The notes under the pieces: generated by a model
What the model was told of the DNA's origin: nothing
Database searches by the model: none
What the model saw: only the letters and a program-made list of their open reading frames with translations
Shown here: piece by piece, positions 54,007 through 63,975 of the stretch
Layout of the letters: the number at the start of each line of letters is the position of its first letter
How positions within the stretch are numbered: position 1 is the stretch's first letter
Source of the DNA: Pyrinomonadaceae bacterium
GTDB taxonomy: Bacteria > Acidobacteriota > Blastocatellia > Pyrinomonadales > Pyrinomonadaceae
Assembly: GCA_026129865.1 (NCBI GenBank)
Contig: JAHCHG010000005.1
Span: 186,001-250,000 of the forward strand
Direction of reading: 5' to 3'
DNA length: 64,000 bases
Program-made: the position numbers and the translations under genes

Positions 54007-54552
54007 TCATTGGGATTTCTCTTTAGCTGTGTAATCGAGCTTACCGTTTACGATCTCTCCGGCGGAACTGATCTTATGTTCCTCGACCTTATCTTCTGTA
54101 AAAATATGGTAAACGGAAGCACCTTTTGCTTTGAAAAAATCCGCGATCAACGCACGGTGGCAGCGCCACCAGAGAACTTCAGCGCACATTACCGCCGTCC
54201 GGTTCTCGCCCGCTAAATTTTCAAGCTTTGCAGCCGCAGATCGAAACTGATCGGTTTCCATATAGTCGGCATAACCGCGAAAAGATTCGTTGCGCCAAGC
54301 GGTATTTTTCGAATCTTTCTTAGCCCGCCGCCGCCCGCCGAGGTCGGGCATCGGTTGATAGTTAATGCCCGCCTCGTGCAGCGACTCGCGCAATTCGTCC
54401 TGATTAAAATGCGGAAATTTACGCGATCCCGGAAAACGCCGGACATCGGCAAGCGTTTTGATGCCGTTTTTCTGCAGAAGCCCGATGAACTCTTCCAAAT
54501 TTCTGGTCGAATGCCCGATCGTCCAAAGTTTTCCGTTATTTTCGCTCGCCAT
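54007..54552 (-). CDS. DUF488 domain-containing protein
   Basis: 181 aa from the ATG at 54552; a GTG five codons upstream is possible. DUF488 hallmarks: LWTIGHSTRNLEEFIGLL, TLADVRRFPGSRKFPHFNQDEL, YQPMPDLGGRR and the CAEVLWWRCHRALIADFF motif with Cys, Arg and His near the C-terminus. Function unknown, and the conserved Cys-His set suggests a redox or metal role. Downstream of the Rieske flavoprotein gene (58-base gap), probably the last gene of that operon. Confidence 0.85.
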   Translation of the reverse strand: MASENNGKLWTIGHSTRNLEEFIGLLQKNGIKTLADVRRFPGSRKFPHFNQDELRESLHEAGINYQPMPDLGGRRRAKKDSKNTAWRNESFRGYADYMETDQFRSAAAKLENLAGENRTAVMCAEVLWWRCHRALIADFFKAKGASVYHIFTEDKVEEHKISSAGEIVNGKLDYTAKEKSQ

Positions 54553-54610
54553 TTGCGTTACATGCACCTTACCTTCGTCGAATATCTACAAACCAAATCG
54601 ACCTGCTGTT

Positions 54611-56179
54611 TCAATCGTTTGACGCCGATTGATGGTTGAGATCCGAAGGGGCAGGCATTTTATCCAAACGCATCATCTCTTCGAATTCAGCCAGCTCGCG
54701 GTCGCGGTTCATGCCTGCGACAGCACGGATCTTCCCGTCTTTTACGTAAAACGCGAGAAATTGCCCGGAATCGATCCGTCCCCGGTAAATAATTTCGTCC
54801 CATTCTTTCAAATGTCCGACGTAGTTCAGGGTCGCGTCAAATTGCGTAGTCCAGAAAAACGGAATTGACGTGAAAGGTTTCTGCATTCCGATCATATTCT
54901 GCGCAGCTGTATTTCCCAACTGCATAGCCGTCCGCCAATGTTCGATTCGGGTGAGTTCTCCGCCAGCCGGTCGATACGGAAAATGGACGATATCGCCTGC
55001 TGCATAAACGTCTTTTCCGGCAGATAAAAACTCGTCGGCAACGATGCCGCCGTCCCGATGGAGTTCTATCCCGCTTTGAAATTCAGCGGCGGGAGCGACG
55101 CCGATTCCGATGATCACAAGATCGGCAGCGATCCGGTCGCCGGACTTTAAAAGTACGCCGGTGACATTTTCGTCTCCTTCGAAATCCTCAACTTCCGACT
55201 CGAGTTTGAATTTCACGCCGTTCTCTTCGTGAACGTTCTTAAAAAAACCGCCGATTTCGGCTCCGAGCGTTTTTTCGAAAGGCACTTTATCCGGTGCGAC
55301 AACCGTTACGTCGCAGCCGCGCGACCTCAAACTCGCCGCTGTTTCCATACCGATAAAACTCGCCCCGATAATGACCGCCCTTTTTCCGTTTTCAAGCGTT
55401 TCGATCACCGCGTCCGCATCGGAAAAGCTCCGGTATGTGAAAACATTTTTCTGCGATGTCTTTTGGAACGGCAATCGGCGGGGAATTCCGCCGGTCGCGA
55501 TCAAAATCGAATCGTAATTTAGAACTTTTCCGTTAACAAGCGTTACGGTCTTCAGATCCGTGTCGACTTTTTCCGCGGCAACGCCCGAAAATTGTTCGAT
55601 ATTGTTATTCTCGAAGAACTCTCTTTCCCGGAGCGGCATCCATTCCGGCTCTGCTTTTCCCTGAAGGTAATCTTTACTCAAATTCGGACGATCGTAAGGA
55701 GCACGGTCTTCGCCCGTGATCATTGTTAAACGACCGGCAAAACCTTCCTGACGCAGTGTTTTTGCGGCGCTGAGTCCGGCAGCGCCGGCACCGAGTATCA
55801 CAAAAGACCGATCGTCGCCGCCCTCGTTCGAAGCCGGTTCCGTCGCGGACATTTCAGCGTCATCCGACGGAATGCGAACAGCGATGCGGTCGTCGGAAAT
55901 TTTGACGTCGTAGCACGGCAGAGAATCGAGCGCGGGCGGTTCCTGCAATTTGCCCGTACGGGCGCTAAAACAAGCGTGATGCCACGGGCAAACGATGCGG
56001 TCGCCGCTCAAATAACCGTCAACAAGAGGCGCACCGTAATGCGTGCATTCGGCACCGACCGCGTGTATCTTTCCGTCAATTCGTGCGAGCAGAACTTTGG
56101 TTTCGCCCGCATAAACTTCCTTCATTTCGGCGTCTGCGATATCTGTCGTTTTTCCAACTTCAAATTCCTCAAATTTCAT
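54611..56179 (-). CDS. FAD-dependent oxidoreductase with N-terminal Rieske domain (AIFM3-like)
   Basis: 522 aa. Rieske [2Fe-2S] site: C45-T-H47 (ECTHYGAPL) and C64-P-W-H67 (CPWHHACF). Then a glutathione-reductase-like flavoprotein: FAD-binding FVILGAGAAGLSAAKTL near residue 126, DRPNLSKDYLQG, a second GxGxxG-type NAD site in RAVIIGASFIGMETAASL, and DVYAAGDIVHFPYR. It would move electrons from NAD(P)H through FAD to the iron-sulphur cluster and a partner protein. The partner is unknown. Operon with ribA and DoxX-like upstream. Confidence 0.9.
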   Translation of the reverse strand: MKFEEFEVGKTTDIADAEMKEVYAGETKVLLARIDGKIHAVGAECTHYGAPLVDGYLSGDRIVCPWHHACFSARTGKLQEPPALDSLPCYDVKISDDRIAVRIPSDDAEMSATEPASNEGGDDRSFVILGAGAAGLSAAKTLRQEGFAGRLTMITGEDRAPYDRPNLSKDYLQGKAEPEWMPLREREFFENNNIEQFSGVAAEKVDTDLKTVTLVNGKVLNYDSILIATGGIPRRLPFQKTSQKNVFTYRSFSDADAVIETLENGKRAVIIGASFIGMETAASLRSRGCDVTVVAPDKVPFEKTLGAEIGGFFKNVHEENGVKFKLESEVEDFEGDENVTGVLLKSGDRIAADLVIIGIGVAPAAEFQSGIELHRDGGIVADEFLSAGKDVYAAGDIVHFPYRPAGGELTRIEHWRTAMQLGNTAAQNMIGMQKPFTSIPFFWTTQFDATLNYVGHLKEWDEIIYRGRIDSGQFLAFYVKDGKIRAVAGMNRDRELAEFEEMMRLDKMPAPSDLNHQSASND

Positions 56180-56233: not shown

Positions 56234-56923
56234 TCAACCGTGCTGATTGACGCATCCGACTTCCGCTTCCACCGGCAGGCTGATCAAATGTCCCAAATTC
56301 GTTTTTTTCGTTTTCAGGTATTTGAGCATTGCAGGATAAAGCCGGATCGGGTGCTGAATTCGATCGACGATTTTGATTCCGGCTCGCTCGACCGCCGCTA
56401 TTTTTTGAGGATTGTTGGAGATCAATCGAACTTGGCGGAGACCGAGAATCAGTAAGATCTCAGCGCATTGAGCATATTTCCGCAGATCGACCGCCAATCC
56501 CAAACGTTCATTCGCTTCGATAGTGTCTGCTCCTTCATCCTGCAGAGCGTAGGCACGAATCTTGTTAATTATCCCGATTCCGCGACCTTCCTGCTGCTGA
56601 TAAACGATGACGCCCGCGTTTTCATCCGCGATAGATTTAAGCGCCGAGCGAAGCTGTTGACCGCAGTCGCATTTCGTCGAAACGAATACGTCACCGGTCA
56701 AACATTGAGAGTGTATTCTTACCAGCGGCGCTTTTGCGGCTTGTAAATTTCCGCGGGTAAGCGCGATAAACTCCTCGTCCGAAACAAGTGACCGAAATCC
56801 GATTATCGAAAACTCGCCAAATTCCGTCGGAAGCCGCGCCGCTGCAACTTGTTCGACCGTTTTCTCCGGATTGCTTCGCAGCTTTCGGATCGGCACAGCC
56901 TCGCACATGTCGTAAAAATTCAT
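56234..56923 (-). CDS. ribA: GTP cyclohydrolase II
   Basis: 229 aa. The catalytic Zn site is C74-x10-C85-x-C87 in HSQCLTGDVFVSTKCDCG, followed by QQQEGRGIGIINKIRAYALQD. It opens GTP in the first step of riboflavin synthesis. It is a stand-alone RibA without the DHBP synthase domain. Here it sits between a DoxX-like protein and a flavoprotein, so local flavin supply for the Rieske-FAD enzyme is a reasonable reading; other riboflavin genes are not in the window. Confidence 0.93.
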   Translation of the reverse strand: MNFYDMCEAVPIRKLRSNPEKTVEQVAAARLPTEFGEFSIIGFRSLVSDEEFIALTRGNLQAAKAPLVRIHSQCLTGDVFVSTKCDCGQQLRSALKSIADENAGVIVYQQQEGRGIGIINKIRAYALQDEGADTIEANERLGLAVDLRKYAQCAEILLILGLRQVRLISNNPQKIAAVERAGIKIVDRIQHPIRLYPAMLKYLKTKKTNLGHLISLPVEAEVGCVNQHG

Positions 56924-56935
56924 AGTTGTCTCCCA

Positions 56936-57361
56936 TCACTCTGCATAACTGCCGCTGAGAATTCCAAGCGCAGCCGCTCCGAACATTAACCCTAGATCGC
57001 GAAGAGCGACATCATAATATCCCGGAACCATCAAAAGATTTACGATTATCAGAAATAACCAGGCGGCAACGACCCAGGAAAAAATTTTCGGTTTTAGAAA
57101 TACTCCGACTCCTGCGGCGATCTCGATGACGCCGACAACGAGCATCAGCTGATGTCCGCGTCCACCTGTTATTTGATTTATAAACGGCGGCAGATATTTA
57201 TCCCAATCGACCAAAACGCCGAAAAATTTATCGATTCCGGCAGCGATCGGGGCGATCGTGTAGCCCGTTCTCAAAATGTTAAATGCTTTCGCACCCGCCG
57301 AACGCTGTTCGACCTTTTCCGCAGCGCCTAATTTTACAGCCGAGTTTAATGCTTCATCCAT
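56936..57361 (-). CDS. DoxX-like membrane protein
   Basis: 141 aa, four transmembrane helices (about res. 35-55, 70-90, 92-112, 115-135). RGHQLMLVVGVIEIAAGVGVFL and NLLMVPGYYDVALRDLGLMFGA are DoxX-type elements. First gene of the leftward operon that continues with ribA (12-base gap). Function of most DoxX-like proteins is unknown; some are linked to redox stress and quinones. Confidence 0.75.
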   Translation of the reverse strand: MDEALNSAVKLGAAEKVEQRSAGAKAFNILRTGYTIAPIAAGIDKFFGVLVDWDKYLPPFINQITGGRGHQLMLVVGVIEIAAGVGVFLKPKIFSWVVAAWLFLIIVNLLMVPGYYDVALRDLGLMFGAAALGILSGSYAE

Positions 57362-57409: not shown

Positions 57410-57438
57410 AACATAAACAGTTTTATATAATAAGTCAA
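57410..57438 (-). promoter_or_regulatory. Candidate promoter of the DoxX-ribA-Rieske operon
   Basis: On the minus strand TTGACT (57438-57433) and TATGTT (57415-57410) are 17 bases apart. The -35 box lies in one arm of the inverted repeat at 57429-57456, so a protein bound there would control it. Confidence 0.5.
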
Positions 57439-57456
57439 GAAGTTATTTGACTTATT
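57429..57456. promoter_or_regulatory. Candidate operator: perfect 10-8-10 inverted repeat
   Basis: AATAAGTCAA-GAAGTTAT-TTGACTTATT lies midway between the divergent DoxX-like and SufR-like genes. Ten matching base pairs per arm make chance unlikely. Each arm contains TTGACT, a -35-like hexamer reading outwards, so the site could repress both directions. The SufR-like regulator gene starting at 57501 is the natural candidate to bind it. Confidence 0.65.
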
Positions 57457-57500
57457 GTGCTTTTTCTTTAAATGTTTTACAATTTCAGCGGTGAATCACG

Positions 57501-58139
57501 ATGAATGCAACAAAATTCGGCAAAAATTTTTTTAATTCCACGCGCGGACAGGTTTTGAAACTCTTGCGCAAAGGAATTCGAACGGTCGATGAACTTGCGT
57601 CCAGGATCGGTGTAACGGACAATGCGGTTCGCGCTCATCTGGCAACGCTTGAGCGCGACGGACTGGTAGCCAGGCAGGGTTTGCAGCCGGGTTTTCGAAA
57701 ACCGCATTTTAATTACGAGCTGACAGCCGATGCGGAACAGCTTTTCCCGAAGGCGTACTCGACGCTCTTTAATATGTTTTTGTCGGCATTGAAGACGAGG
57801 ATCGGCGGCGAGGAACTCGAGGAAATAATTTCGGATGTCGCAAGATCGCTTGCGGCGGAAACGCGGCAAACAATTGGGGAAACGCCCGAAGTTCGGGCGG
57901 AAGCGGCGGCACGTGCGCTGGAATCGCTCGGCGGCGCGCCGGCGGTTGAGAATGAAGATGGAAAGTTAATCGTCCGGAGCATTTCAAGCTGTCCGTTCGA
58001 CGTTTCGGTTTCCGAGCATCCCGAAGTTTGCCGTCTGGCTGAGGCGTTTTTGTCGGAAGTAACGGGAACAAATGTGCGGGAACGCTGCCAGAAAGGCGAT
58101 CGTCCGCAATGTTCGTTTGAGTTTGTCGGCGATAATTAA
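57501..58139 (+). CDS. SufR-like winged-helix regulator with Cys cluster
   Basis: 212 aa. N-terminal winged helix: GQVLKLLRKGIRTVDELASRIGVTDNAVRAHLATLERDGLVARQG. The C-terminal Cys pattern is CX12CX18CX7C (SCPFDVSVSEHPEVC, later ERCQKGDRPQC); first, second and last Cys give CX12CX26C, close to the CX12CX27C reported in SufR, which binds an iron-sulphur cluster and represses suf genes. A redox, oxygen or NO sensor is therefore likely. No suf genes are nearby; its probable targets are the divergent DoxX-ribA-Rieske operon and itself. The DUF2156 gene follows 55 bases downstream. Confidence 0.8.
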   Translation: MNATKFGKNFFNSTRGQVLKLLRKGIRTVDELASRIGVTDNAVRAHLATLERDGLVARQGLQPGFRKPHFNYELTADAEQLFPKAYSTLFNMFLSALKTRIGGEELEEIISDVARSLAAETRQTIGETPEVRAEAAARALESLGGAPAVENEDGKLIVRSISSCPFDVSVSEHPEVCRLAEAFLSEVTGTNVRERCQKGDRPQCSFEFVGDN

Positions 58140-58194
58140 CGATCGGGGCGATTTTGAGGTAAAACAGTGCGGCTCAGCAGCCGCGGCGGGACCG

Positions 58195-59277
58195 ATGCAA
58201 AAAAGGGAATCAGCCGTTTTGGAAAAGGCTCGACGAATAGTTCTCGAGCACGGATGGAATTCCACCGTTTACCAGATCTTAAATCCCGGAATCGATTTTT
58301 GGTTTCCGGCGTCCGGACACGCCGTTGTCGGACAGGTTCGCTGCCGAAGAGTTCGTGTTGTTGCCGGAGCGCCGGTCGCGTCGAAGGAACGTCTTAAAGC
58401 CGTTTCCGACGAATTCGAAGCGGACGCCGCAGCACGGGGCGATACGGTTTGTTATTTTTGTGCTGAGGCAAGACTTGAAAATGTTTATTCGGCGTCGGTC
58501 GATCATTCCAAAGTACTGCTCGGGGCGCAGCCGGTCTGGGACCCGAAAAATTGGGCGACGATCGTTTCCGGCAACAAAAACGTCAGGTCCCAGATTAACC
58601 GCGCGCGGAATAAAAACGTTGTCGTTTCCGAATGGTCGATAGACCGCGCTGAAGATCATCCCGAATTAGTCGAGACGCTCCAAGCCTGGCTGGATTCGAA
58701 GGGCTTGCCGCCGCTTCATTTTATGGTCGAACCGCAAACCCTTTCAGACCTTCAAAACCGGCGCGTCTTTGTTGCGGAGCGAGACAGCGAGGTTAACGGT
58801 TTTGTCGTACTTTCGCCGGTTCCGACGCGCAACGGCTGGCTTTTCGAGCAGTTCGTTCATCGCCCGTCCTCACCGAACGGAACCGTCGAGCTGATGATAG
58901 ATTTTGCCATGCGCGCTCTTGCGGAATCGGGTTCGGATTATGCAACGCTCGGGCTGTCGCCTTTGTCGAAGCGTGCCGACATTGATCCGTTCGAAAATCC
59001 TTTATGGCTGCGGTTCGTGCTTGCGTGGATGCGGAAACATGGTCAGCGGTTTTACAATTTTGACGGTTTAGATGCTTTCAAGGCGAAATTTCAGCCGGAA
59101 ATGTGGGAACCCGTATTCGCGATATCGAACGAAAAGAATTTCTCGTTCAAAACGCTTAAAGCGATCGCCGCAGCGTTTAGTAATGACGAACCGTTGAAGC
59201 TCTTTCTCGGCGGACTTTGGCGCGCTTTTCGAACCGAATTAACCTGGTTAAAAGGCAAAATTTACTCTTTAAAGTAA
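58195..59277 (+). CDS. DUF2156 / phosphatidylglycerol lysyltransferase C-terminal domain protein
   Basis: 360 aa from the ATG at 58195 (GGCGGGA upstream); the open frame reaches to 58072, inside the previous gene. The domain matches the GNAT-like C-terminal part of MprF (FRVHGHAVVGQ-type start, here FPASGHAVVGQV, later SQINRARNKNVVVSE and NFDGLDAFKAKFQPEMWEPVF). MprF adds lysine to phosphatidylglycerol, but this protein lacks the flippase helices, so acceptor and activity are open. Confidence 0.75.
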   Translation: MQKRESAVLEKARRIVLEHGWNSTVYQILNPGIDFWFPASGHAVVGQVRCRRVRVVAGAPVASKERLKAVSDEFEADAAARGDTVCYFCAEARLENVYSASVDHSKVLLGAQPVWDPKNWATIVSGNKNVRSQINRARNKNVVVSEWSIDRAEDHPELVETLQAWLDSKGLPPLHFMVEPQTLSDLQNRRVFVAERDSEVNGFVVLSPVPTRNGWLFEQFVHRPSSPNGTVELMIDFAMRALAESGSDYATLGLSPLSKRADIDPFENPLWLRFVLAWMRKHGQRFYNFDGLDAFKAKFQPEMWEPVFAISNEKNFSFKTLKAIAAAFSNDEPLKLFLGGLWRAFRTELTWLKGKIYSLK

Positions 59278-59285
59278 ATTTTGCC
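59254..59285. terminator. Hairpin overlapping a stop codon between convergent genes
   Basis: GGCAAAATTTACT-CTTTAA-AGTAAATTTTGCC, a perfect 13-bp stem that includes the last codons and the TAA of the DUF2156 gene and ends 8 bases before the stop of the convergent truncated haemoglobin gene. It is symmetrical, so it may end transcription from both sides, though A+T-rich and without a T tract. Confidence 0.6.
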
Positions 59286-59293
59286 GAAACTGT

Positions 59294-59680
59294 TTACGAA
59301 CGATTACTTGAAACAAAAGAAAGCATTCGATTTGCGATCATTCCCGCTCTCTGCTTGGCAAAATCGGCGCGTTCGCCTTCGAACGACCGATCGATGCAGT
59401 CGTTAAAAAGTTCCAGCCACCGTTCGAAATGTTCGAATTTTAGCGGTGATTTTTGATGAAGCTCGCCGTGAACCTGCAGCGGATTTCTTCCGTGGCGCTG
59501 ATAGTTTCGCGCACCGAGAAGCAGGCTTTCCCAAAAATCGCCGATCACCGGTAAATGATGTTCAAGATCGAGTTTTGCAACTTCAGTAAAAAGATAACCG
59601 ATCTTGTCATCGGCTAGCGCTTTTTCGTAAAACTCTTTCATTAAAAGATCTATGTCCGCCCTGTTTTCAATATCCTGCAT
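59294..59680 (-). CDS. Group III truncated haemoglobin
   Basis: 128 aa, standard size for the group III (P) class. MQDIENRADIDLLMKEFYEKALADDKIGYLF begins the short A-helix fold; HHLPVIGDFWESLLLG and GRNPLQVHGELHQKSPLKFEHFERWLELF contain the expected distal and proximal His regions. Truncated globins bind O2 or NO; roles include NO dioxygenation. Last gene of the porin-4TM-VWFA-globin operon, next to a NarK transporter, which fits nitrogen-oxide handling. Confidence 0.9.
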   Translation of the reverse strand: MQDIENRADIDLLMKEFYEKALADDKIGYLFTEVAKLDLEHHLPVIGDFWESLLLGARNYQRHGRNPLQVHGELHQKSPLKFEHFERWLELFNDCIDRSFEGERADFAKQRAGMIANRMLSFVSSNRS

Positions 59681-62790: not shown

Positions 62791-63975
62791 TTATCCATTG
62801 GAATTTACAACTTCTGAATTTCGTATGAAGGCAAAATAATTGATTGCCAAACACATCAACGCAAAAATCGTTAAGAATAGGAATCCGAGGATGTAACTTT
62901 CAGTCCAATCTCTTACCACCCCAAGAACAAGGGGCGGAAAAAATCCGCCGAGTCCGCCGAATGCACCGACCAGTCCCGTTACAGTTCCGGTTTCTTTCGG
63001 GAAATATTGCGGAACGAGTTTGAAAACCGCTCCGCTTCCCATTCCCAAAGCAGCCGCGCCGCCTAATGCACCAATGGTAAACGGAATCATCGACCCCAGT
63101 TTCAGTAGAACTGAAAAACAGGCTATAGCGGCAAACACAAACATTAGAACCTTTGCTCCGCCGACTTTATCCGCCAAAATTCCGCCGACCGGACGCAGGA
63201 GAGTTGCCAAAATCACAAAACCCGCAGTTCGTGCGCCGGCATCTGTTGGTGAAAGATCGTAAAGGTCTATAAGAAGTGTCGGAAGATAGATCGAGAAAGC
63301 CACAAAACCGCCGAATGTCAGAAAATAAAATATTGAGAGAATCCAAGCCTTCGGCGAAGTTTGCAAGACTTTTATATTTTCGGCAAATGTTTTCGGCTTA
63401 GCGGTAGTTTCGGCATCTCTGGCAAACAGATAAAAAATGATTCCCCAGATCAAAGAGATCGCTGCAAAAATATAAAAAACAGGTCGCCAATCCGCAAGCC
63501 ACAAAGCTAAAACGGGTGCAAAGAAAACGGCTGCCGATTGACCGATATTACCGACTCCATAGATGCCGAGTGCCATTCCCTGCTTTTCGGGAGCAAACCA
63601 TTTCGAGGTAAAAGCGACTCCGATCGCAAAGGAAGTTCCTGCCAACCCGACCAGCAAACCTAATAAAATAAGTTGGTTATAACTTGAAGAAAAGCCGATC
63701 AACGCCGCCGGAATTGCCGAACCGATCAGCAAAACGGTAAAGACGATTCTTCCGCCGAAACGGTCTGCCAGCATTCCCGCCGGAAGTCTGCCGATCGAAC
63801 CGAGCAGAACCGGAACTGCGATCAAAATACTTTTGCTGGTCGCAGAAAGACTGTAAATTTCAGTAAATGTCGGAGCTAAGGCAGAAATTAATCCCCAAAT
63901 CGCAAAGGCTACGCCAAATGCCATTGTTGACATAAATAATGCCCGTGCCGCCCCCGGTCTGAATGTTTCATTCAT
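62791..63975 (-). CDS. narK: NarK-type nitrate/nitrite MFS transporter
   Basis: 394 aa, about 12 helices. NarK hallmarks: LGIYGVGNIGQSAAVFFAP (nitrate signature GxxNxG) and, in the second half, VTGLVGAFGGLGGFFPPLVLG. RLPAGMLADRFGGR is the MFS loop between helices 2 and 3. Length agrees with single-domain NarK. It moves nitrate and/or nitrite across the cytoplasmic membrane. The upstream region is cut by the window end, so its regulation is not visible. Confidence 0.88.
   Translation of the reverse strand: MNETFRPGAARALFMSTMAFGVAFAIWGLISALAPTFTEIYSLSATSKSILIAVPVLLGSIGRLPAGMLADRFGGRIVFTVLLIGSAIPAALIGFSSSYNQLILLGLLVGLAGTSFAIGVAFTSKWFAPEKQGMALGIYGVGNIGQSAAVFFAPVLALWLADWRPVFYIFAAISLIWGIIFYLFARDAETTAKPKTFAENIKVLQTSPKAWILSIFYFLTFGGFVAFSIYLPTLLIDLYDLSPTDAGARTAGFVILATLLRPVGGILADKVGGAKVLMFVFAAIACFSVLLKLGSMIPFTIGALGGAAALGMGSGAVFKLVPQYFPKETGTVTGLVGAFGGLGGFFPPLVLGVVRDWTESYILGFLFLTIFALMCLAINYFAFIRNSEVVNSNG

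Follow-up and report, generated by a model that had tools for sequence, protein, structure and literature searches.

A SufR/ArnR-like winged-helix regulator with its own conserved operator and a predicted redox-stress regulon

The stretch of DNA analysed here (64 kb, termed the window) contains a 139-bp intergenic gap between a gene for a winged-helix regulator and a divergent run of redox genes, and a perfect inverted repeat lies within this gap. The locus raises the question of whether the repeat is the operator of the regulator, and of what such a regulator would sense and control. The best reading is a new clade of SufR/ArnR-like predicted iron–sulphur repressors with an operator of their own and a small redox-stress regulon. 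The divergent DoxX-like, ribA and Rieske–FAD genes named in an earlier sequence-only reading are present, with a DUF488 gene downstream of them, and the locus is made up of the following features:

54007..54567, minus strand: DUF488 protein, encoded at the end of the run (domain match; neighbourhood in relatives)
54611..56179, minus strand: Rieske ferredoxin fused to an FAD-dependent ferredoxin reductase (PF00355, PF07992, PF14759)
56234..56923, minus strand: RibA, GTP cyclohydrolase II (PF00925, 205.6 bits; above the TIGR00505 cut-off)
56936..57361, minus strand: DoxX-like membrane protein, the commonest regulon member (49–60% identical across the aligned set)
57410..57438, minus strand: predicted promoter of the DoxX–ribA–Rieske run (-35 TTGACT, which is the operator arm, 17-bp spacer, -10 TATGTT; coordinates read by hand)
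57429..57456, no strand: predicted operator, a perfect 10-8-10 inverted repeat, AATAAGTCAA-gaagttat-TTGACTTATT (from its sequence; kept upstream of orthologues)
57455..57483, plus strand: predicted regulator promoter (TTGTGC, 17-bp spacer, TACAAT; 2-bp overlap with the operator end; coordinates read by hand)
57501..58139, plus strand: SufR/ArnR-like winged-helix regulator of 212 residues (HTH_5, 34.9 bits; tree clade support 100/99)

The DoxX-like proteins stay below the cut-off of the DoxX model (PF07681), with weak matches for 3 of 12 members (best E 0.0047) and none for the window member. The position of the DUF488 gene in the run is the same in one relative (G784), and in two others (G783 and G414) DUF488 is close to the regulator.

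The palindrome had been described earlier with exactly this sequence and these coordinates. A genome-wide scan finds a single copy of AATAAGTCAA-N8-TTGACTTATT in the 4.4-Mb genome and no second site at three or fewer mismatches. By itself an inverted repeat is weak evidence, as such repeats are not rare: the window holds four perfect ones (10-bp arms, gap 0–20), against a shuffle mean of 2.65, and a perfect repeat arises in 188 of 20,000 shuffles of the 139-bp gap (p about 0.009). The decisive evidence for its predicted role as an operator is conservation in relatives, and it is because this comparison settles the question that the palindrome is taken as more than chance. The spacer is also non-random, with a consensus GAA(C/G)TATT; in some genomes this creates a nested AATAAGT-N5-ACTTATT-like repeat, which may represent a third half-site at a distance of one helical turn.

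Clear orthologues of the regulator, with 48–53% identity, were found by protein search in six relatives, all six of which carry the site at no more than one mismatch in the same divergent gap; a site that good is absent from every other genome among the 60 scanned. The earlier reading had named absence of the palindrome from relatives that keep both genes as grounds for abandoning the idea; such absence was looked for, and the site is present. Across the family the regulator orthologue occurs in 23 of 119 genomes, and a site at two or fewer mismatches occurs in 21 of the 23 genomes with the regulator as opposed to 1 of the 96 without it (Fisher p 5e-20, a guide only, as the genomes are treated as independent although related). 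The divergent gap holds the site in nearly every orthologue locus. The lone site without a regulator (G781, one mismatch) lies upstream of DoxX–ribA–Rieske–FAD at a contig end, and the absence of the regulator there is probably no more than a gap in the assembly. Among genomes with the orthologue, G357 and G801 lack a good site, but both retain a degenerate copy with four mismatches at the expected place. Sites with three mismatches in genomes without the regulator were discounted, being no commoner than matches to a reversed-pattern control.

A second order shows the same pairing; the way to it led through loci from records carrying the labels Spartobacteria and Chthoniobacterales. Here the orthologue is present in 31 of 213 genomes, and the core site in 20 of these 31 and in 1 of the 182 lacking the regulator (p 3e-19, again a guide only because related genomes are treated as independent); the reversed-pattern control matched in one genome, and 11 of the 31 regulator genomes lie outside the site search threshold. 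Two metagenome-assembled genomes labelled Bryobacteraceae and Chthoniobacterales (loci L032 and L033) agree exactly in the regulator and the region upstream of it; as the labels belong to different phyla, one of the two is probably a binning error.

The layout of the predicted promoters was compared in 26 intergenic regions aligned on the operator. On the DoxX/ribA-facing side, a TANNNT hexamer lies 16 or 17 bp past TTGACT in 21 of the 26 genomes, a spacing from which the operator arm itself is read as the -35 box of the enzyme promoter, and this arm varies less among the genomes than the other. On the regulator side, a TANNNT is found at one exact place in 16 of the 26 genomes, 25 bp from TTGACT, so that the likely -35 there is instead a TTGTGN abutting the operator; measured from a TTGT(G/A)N sharing 2 bp with the operator end, the distance to this -10 is 17 bp. 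The outward-facing -35 boxes proposed earlier in both arms therefore hold on the enzyme side, where the -10 follows at 16–17 bp, and fail on the regulator side, where it is 25 bp away. With the operator arm serving as the predicted enzyme -35 box, repression is the likely mode of action, and judged from this geometry it would likely extend to both promoters.

The winged-helix protein noted earlier at 57501–58139 is confirmed by its HTH_5 match (34.9 bits). It contains the cysteines C164, C177, C196 and C204, arranged as C-x12-C-x18-C-x7-C, all four of which are invariant in a 10-member alignment of the regulators; the CX12CX26C arrangement first described is right for three of them and omits C196. 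The closest Pfam models are ArsR-type HTH domains. Among NCBIfam models, SufR_cyano (TIGR02702, an equivalog) is matched by all 10 aligned members with the best E-value, although the window member matches over residues 14–130 only and scores 45.1 bits, far below the curated cut-off of 178.8. The predicted structure (mean pLDDT 78, pTM 0.54) matches ArsR/MarR-type winged helices; similarity of a part of it to the BcsD fold, with a TM-score of up to 0.64 of the target, was set aside as too weak for a functional claim.

The recognition helix reads [TS]DNA(V/I)R(A/S)HL almost throughout the clade and differs in paralogues, which fits one shared operator. Maximum-likelihood phylogeny places the operator-bearing proteins apart from the remaining SufR-like proteins of these groups (support 100/99). 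The paralogue group, matching at E about 1e-12 to 1e-20, was accordingly rejected as orthologous on the grounds of its other recognition helix and its separate clade (100/99). The next match (G359, 31% identical) is without a site and was also rejected; it forms a long branch joining the clade side of the tree.

The nearest described relatives are SufR proteins. Cyanobacterial SufR is a [4Fe-4S] repressor and autoregulator that works from a shared gap (PMC7058544) and binds CAAC-N6-GTTG in Synechocystis (PMC4755962). The function of the Mycobacterium tuberculosis homologue Rv1460 requires C203, C216 and C244, spaced C-x12-C-x27-C (PMC6034842), and repression by SufR of Mtb is lost once NO or ROS damages the cluster (PMC9045647). 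With SufR (sll0088) and Rv1460 the window regulator shares an ArsR/MarR-like winged helix and C-terminal cysteines, three of them spaced C-x12-C-x26-C, and with cyanobacterial SufR it shares the divergent layout with the operator in the shared gap. Both operators have a CAA-N8-TTG core, but the inner C/G of the SufR site is not kept here (position 11 is G in 22 of 26), and the window operator reads GTCAA-N8-TTGAC with fixed AT flanks. The window clade differs further in its conserved extra C196 and in the predicted control of DoxX, ribA and Rieske genes in place of suf. The suf genes of this genome (two SufB/D genes, a SufC-type ATPase, a class-V aminotransferase and a NifU-type scaffold) lie on another contig (C5) downstream of an Rrf2 regulator gene, and the genome-wide scan found no copy of the operator at that operon. 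This is in agreement with the earlier proposal of a SufR-like regulator with its own operator that serves redox genes instead of suf. As the protein falls short of the SufR model, the full SufR operator and suf linkage, it is filed as a SufR-like new clade, not as SufR; the conserved inverted-repeat operator in the gap to the divergent target gene is in keeping with the SufR-like assignment.

ArnR of Corynebacterium, described as reminiscent of SufR, is a [4Fe-4S] repressor that acts on narKGHJI and hmp and comes off under NO (PMC12343034). By description it resembles the window regulator as a winged-helix repressor of non-suf redox genes, and a globin gene carries the operator in one relative (G328), whereas NarK and the truncated haemoglobin of the window have none. 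By description, too, it is set apart: its Cys179, Cys193 and Cys223 are spaced x13 and x29, it is described without the fourth conserved cysteine, and its targets differ. The SoxRS system of E. coli shares the logic of an Fe–S sensor and controls ribA and a flavin reductase gene (fpr), but protein and operator are unrelated to those of the window; SoxR is a MerR-type protein that activates through SoxS. The Rrf2 family (IscR, NsrR) likewise comprises Fe–S regulators of suf/isc or NO-detoxification genes, yet it is another protein family, with the suf operon of this very genome downstream of one of its genes. In the open-access literature no publication was found that links a SufR-like regulator with DoxX.

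In the genome of the window the predicted regulon is one divergent run, so the earlier description of the switch as self-contained is apt there; in relatives the regulon extends to other loci. Where DoxX is no longer beside the regulator (G797), it is still preceded by a one-mismatch site, and in G969 a Rieske-reductase gene is near the site. Extra sites lie upstream of the truncated haemoglobin gene already mentioned in G328, of DUF488, a flavin/ferredoxin-reductase-like gene and folE, encoding GTP cyclohydrolase I (G415 and G418), and of DUF2231, DUF4142 and ferritin–OsmC genes (G930, G932 and G957), individual three-mismatch sites being less certain. The common theme of this predicted regulon is redox or iron stress, although its content points to no single signal; in E. 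coli, ribA is one of the SoxRS-regulated genes, and its product is able to hydrolyse 8-oxo-dGTP (PMC6092379).

Two further kinds of gene were observed near such sites. In G415, a protein (L098:76-1683) in which an N-terminal membrane region, DoxX-like by eye, is fused to multicopper-oxidase domains is encoded about 5 kb from a three-mismatch operator. In G054, DoxX and ribA are separated by a cytochrome c/DHOR-like (di-haem peroxidase) gene, and a similar gene in G799 has a two-mismatch site about 550 bp upstream; the loci of such genes are:

L041:6820-8199, minus strand: cytochrome c/DHOR-like gene
L040:2637-4100, minus strand: cytochrome c/DHOR-like gene
L173:3-1463, minus strand: cytochrome c/DHOR-like gene

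Comparison of genomes thus yields the pairing of regulator and operator, the promoter geometry, the conserved cysteines and the regulon content. The protein encoded at 57501–58139 is probably a repressor acting at 57429–57456 through an Fe–S cluster on a redox-stress regulon. A dimer would bind the inverted repeat through the recognition helix TDNAVRAHL, and its DNA-bound form probably carries the cluster on C164, C177 and C204, perhaps with C196. Thus placed, it would cover the -35 box of the DoxX–ribA–Rieske–FAD–DUF488 run and abut its own promoter, holding both down. Once an oxidant or NO damaged the cluster, the protein would let go of the DNA (candidate signals are O2, superoxide and NO; the earlier reading had proposed oxygen or NO), and flavin synthesis (RibA), the Rieske/flavin reductase and the DoxX-like membrane protein would be turned on as a stress response. 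Repression, the cluster, its signal and this physiological purpose are what we infer from the comparisons.

A regulator that represses at the same palindrome might instead hold zinc with its cysteines or use them as a thiol switch, and would then sense oxidants, electrophiles or metals, as other ArsR-type proteins do. Its closest Pfam models are indeed of that type, four invariant cysteines suit structural zinc as well as a cluster, and genes for OsmC, glutaredoxin-like proteins and ferritin are among the regulon members. The C-x12-C-x26-C arrangement, however, is the spacing of the functional cysteines of Rv1460 and is near that of Cys179/193/223 in ArnR, both of them Fe–S regulators, and SufR_cyano is the best match of all 10 aligned members, that of the window being far below the cut-off; a zinc-binding or thiol-switch regulator appears unlikely, if worth keeping in mind.

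The two remaining alternatives concern the site. An activator or dual regulator, whose ligand-loaded form stimulates, from this site, either the enzyme promoter or that of its own gene, would be consistent with a site centre placed about 48 bp upstream of the expected regulator start, by our estimate outside the core promoter. It is nonetheless improbable: the enzyme-side arm is a good -35 box at 16–17-bp spacing that can work without an activator and that bound protein would mask, and SufR and ArnR are repressors. That the palindrome is a transcription terminator or a chance hairpin unrelated to the regulator draws on the near-equal number of such repeats in the window and in shuffled sequence, yet the repeat is A+T-rich and lies between divergent starts, and its sequence, beyond mere symmetry, is kept in the family and in the second order almost only alongside the regulator. 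The co-occurrence counts refute this last idea, which we regard as scarcely credible.

For the Fe–S repressor, a broader formulation stands at about even chances: an undescribed SufR-like clade with the operator AATAAGTCAA-N8-TTGACTTATT, present in two distant groups, one of them Verrucomicrobiota-labelled, and governing a SoxRS-like regulon of which a DoxX-like protein is the commonest member, alongside GTP cyclohydrolase II or I, Rieske-flavoproteins, ferritin, OsmC and globin. An unannotated regulator would thereby become a defined set of regulator, operator and regulon, testable on a single short piece of DNA, and the SufR-like fold would be seen reused away from iron–sulphur assembly. For the strongly conserved DoxX-like membrane protein and DUF488 it would offer a first functional lead, redox stress, and it would suggest a stress role for the extra GTP cyclohydrolases.

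Beyond the regulator, a truncated-globin gene (59294–59680; Bac_globin, 24.5 bits) lies 1.2 kb past it, followed further on by a porin-like gene and a NarK-family transporter gene (62791–63975). This neighbourhood is suggestive of nitrogen-oxide chemistry, though no operator is found there, and because the genome has no second site within three mismatches, the truncated haemoglobin, porin and NarK were rejected as regulon members for this genome. The gene directly after the regulator (58072–59277) encodes a protein with an LPG-synthase C-terminal (MprF-like) domain; as this open reading frame is listed with a start that overlaps the regulator end, translation probably begins further downstream. 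At its end, a perfect AT-rich inverted repeat, AAAATTTACTCTTTAAAGTAAATTTT (59257–59282), is possibly a terminator.
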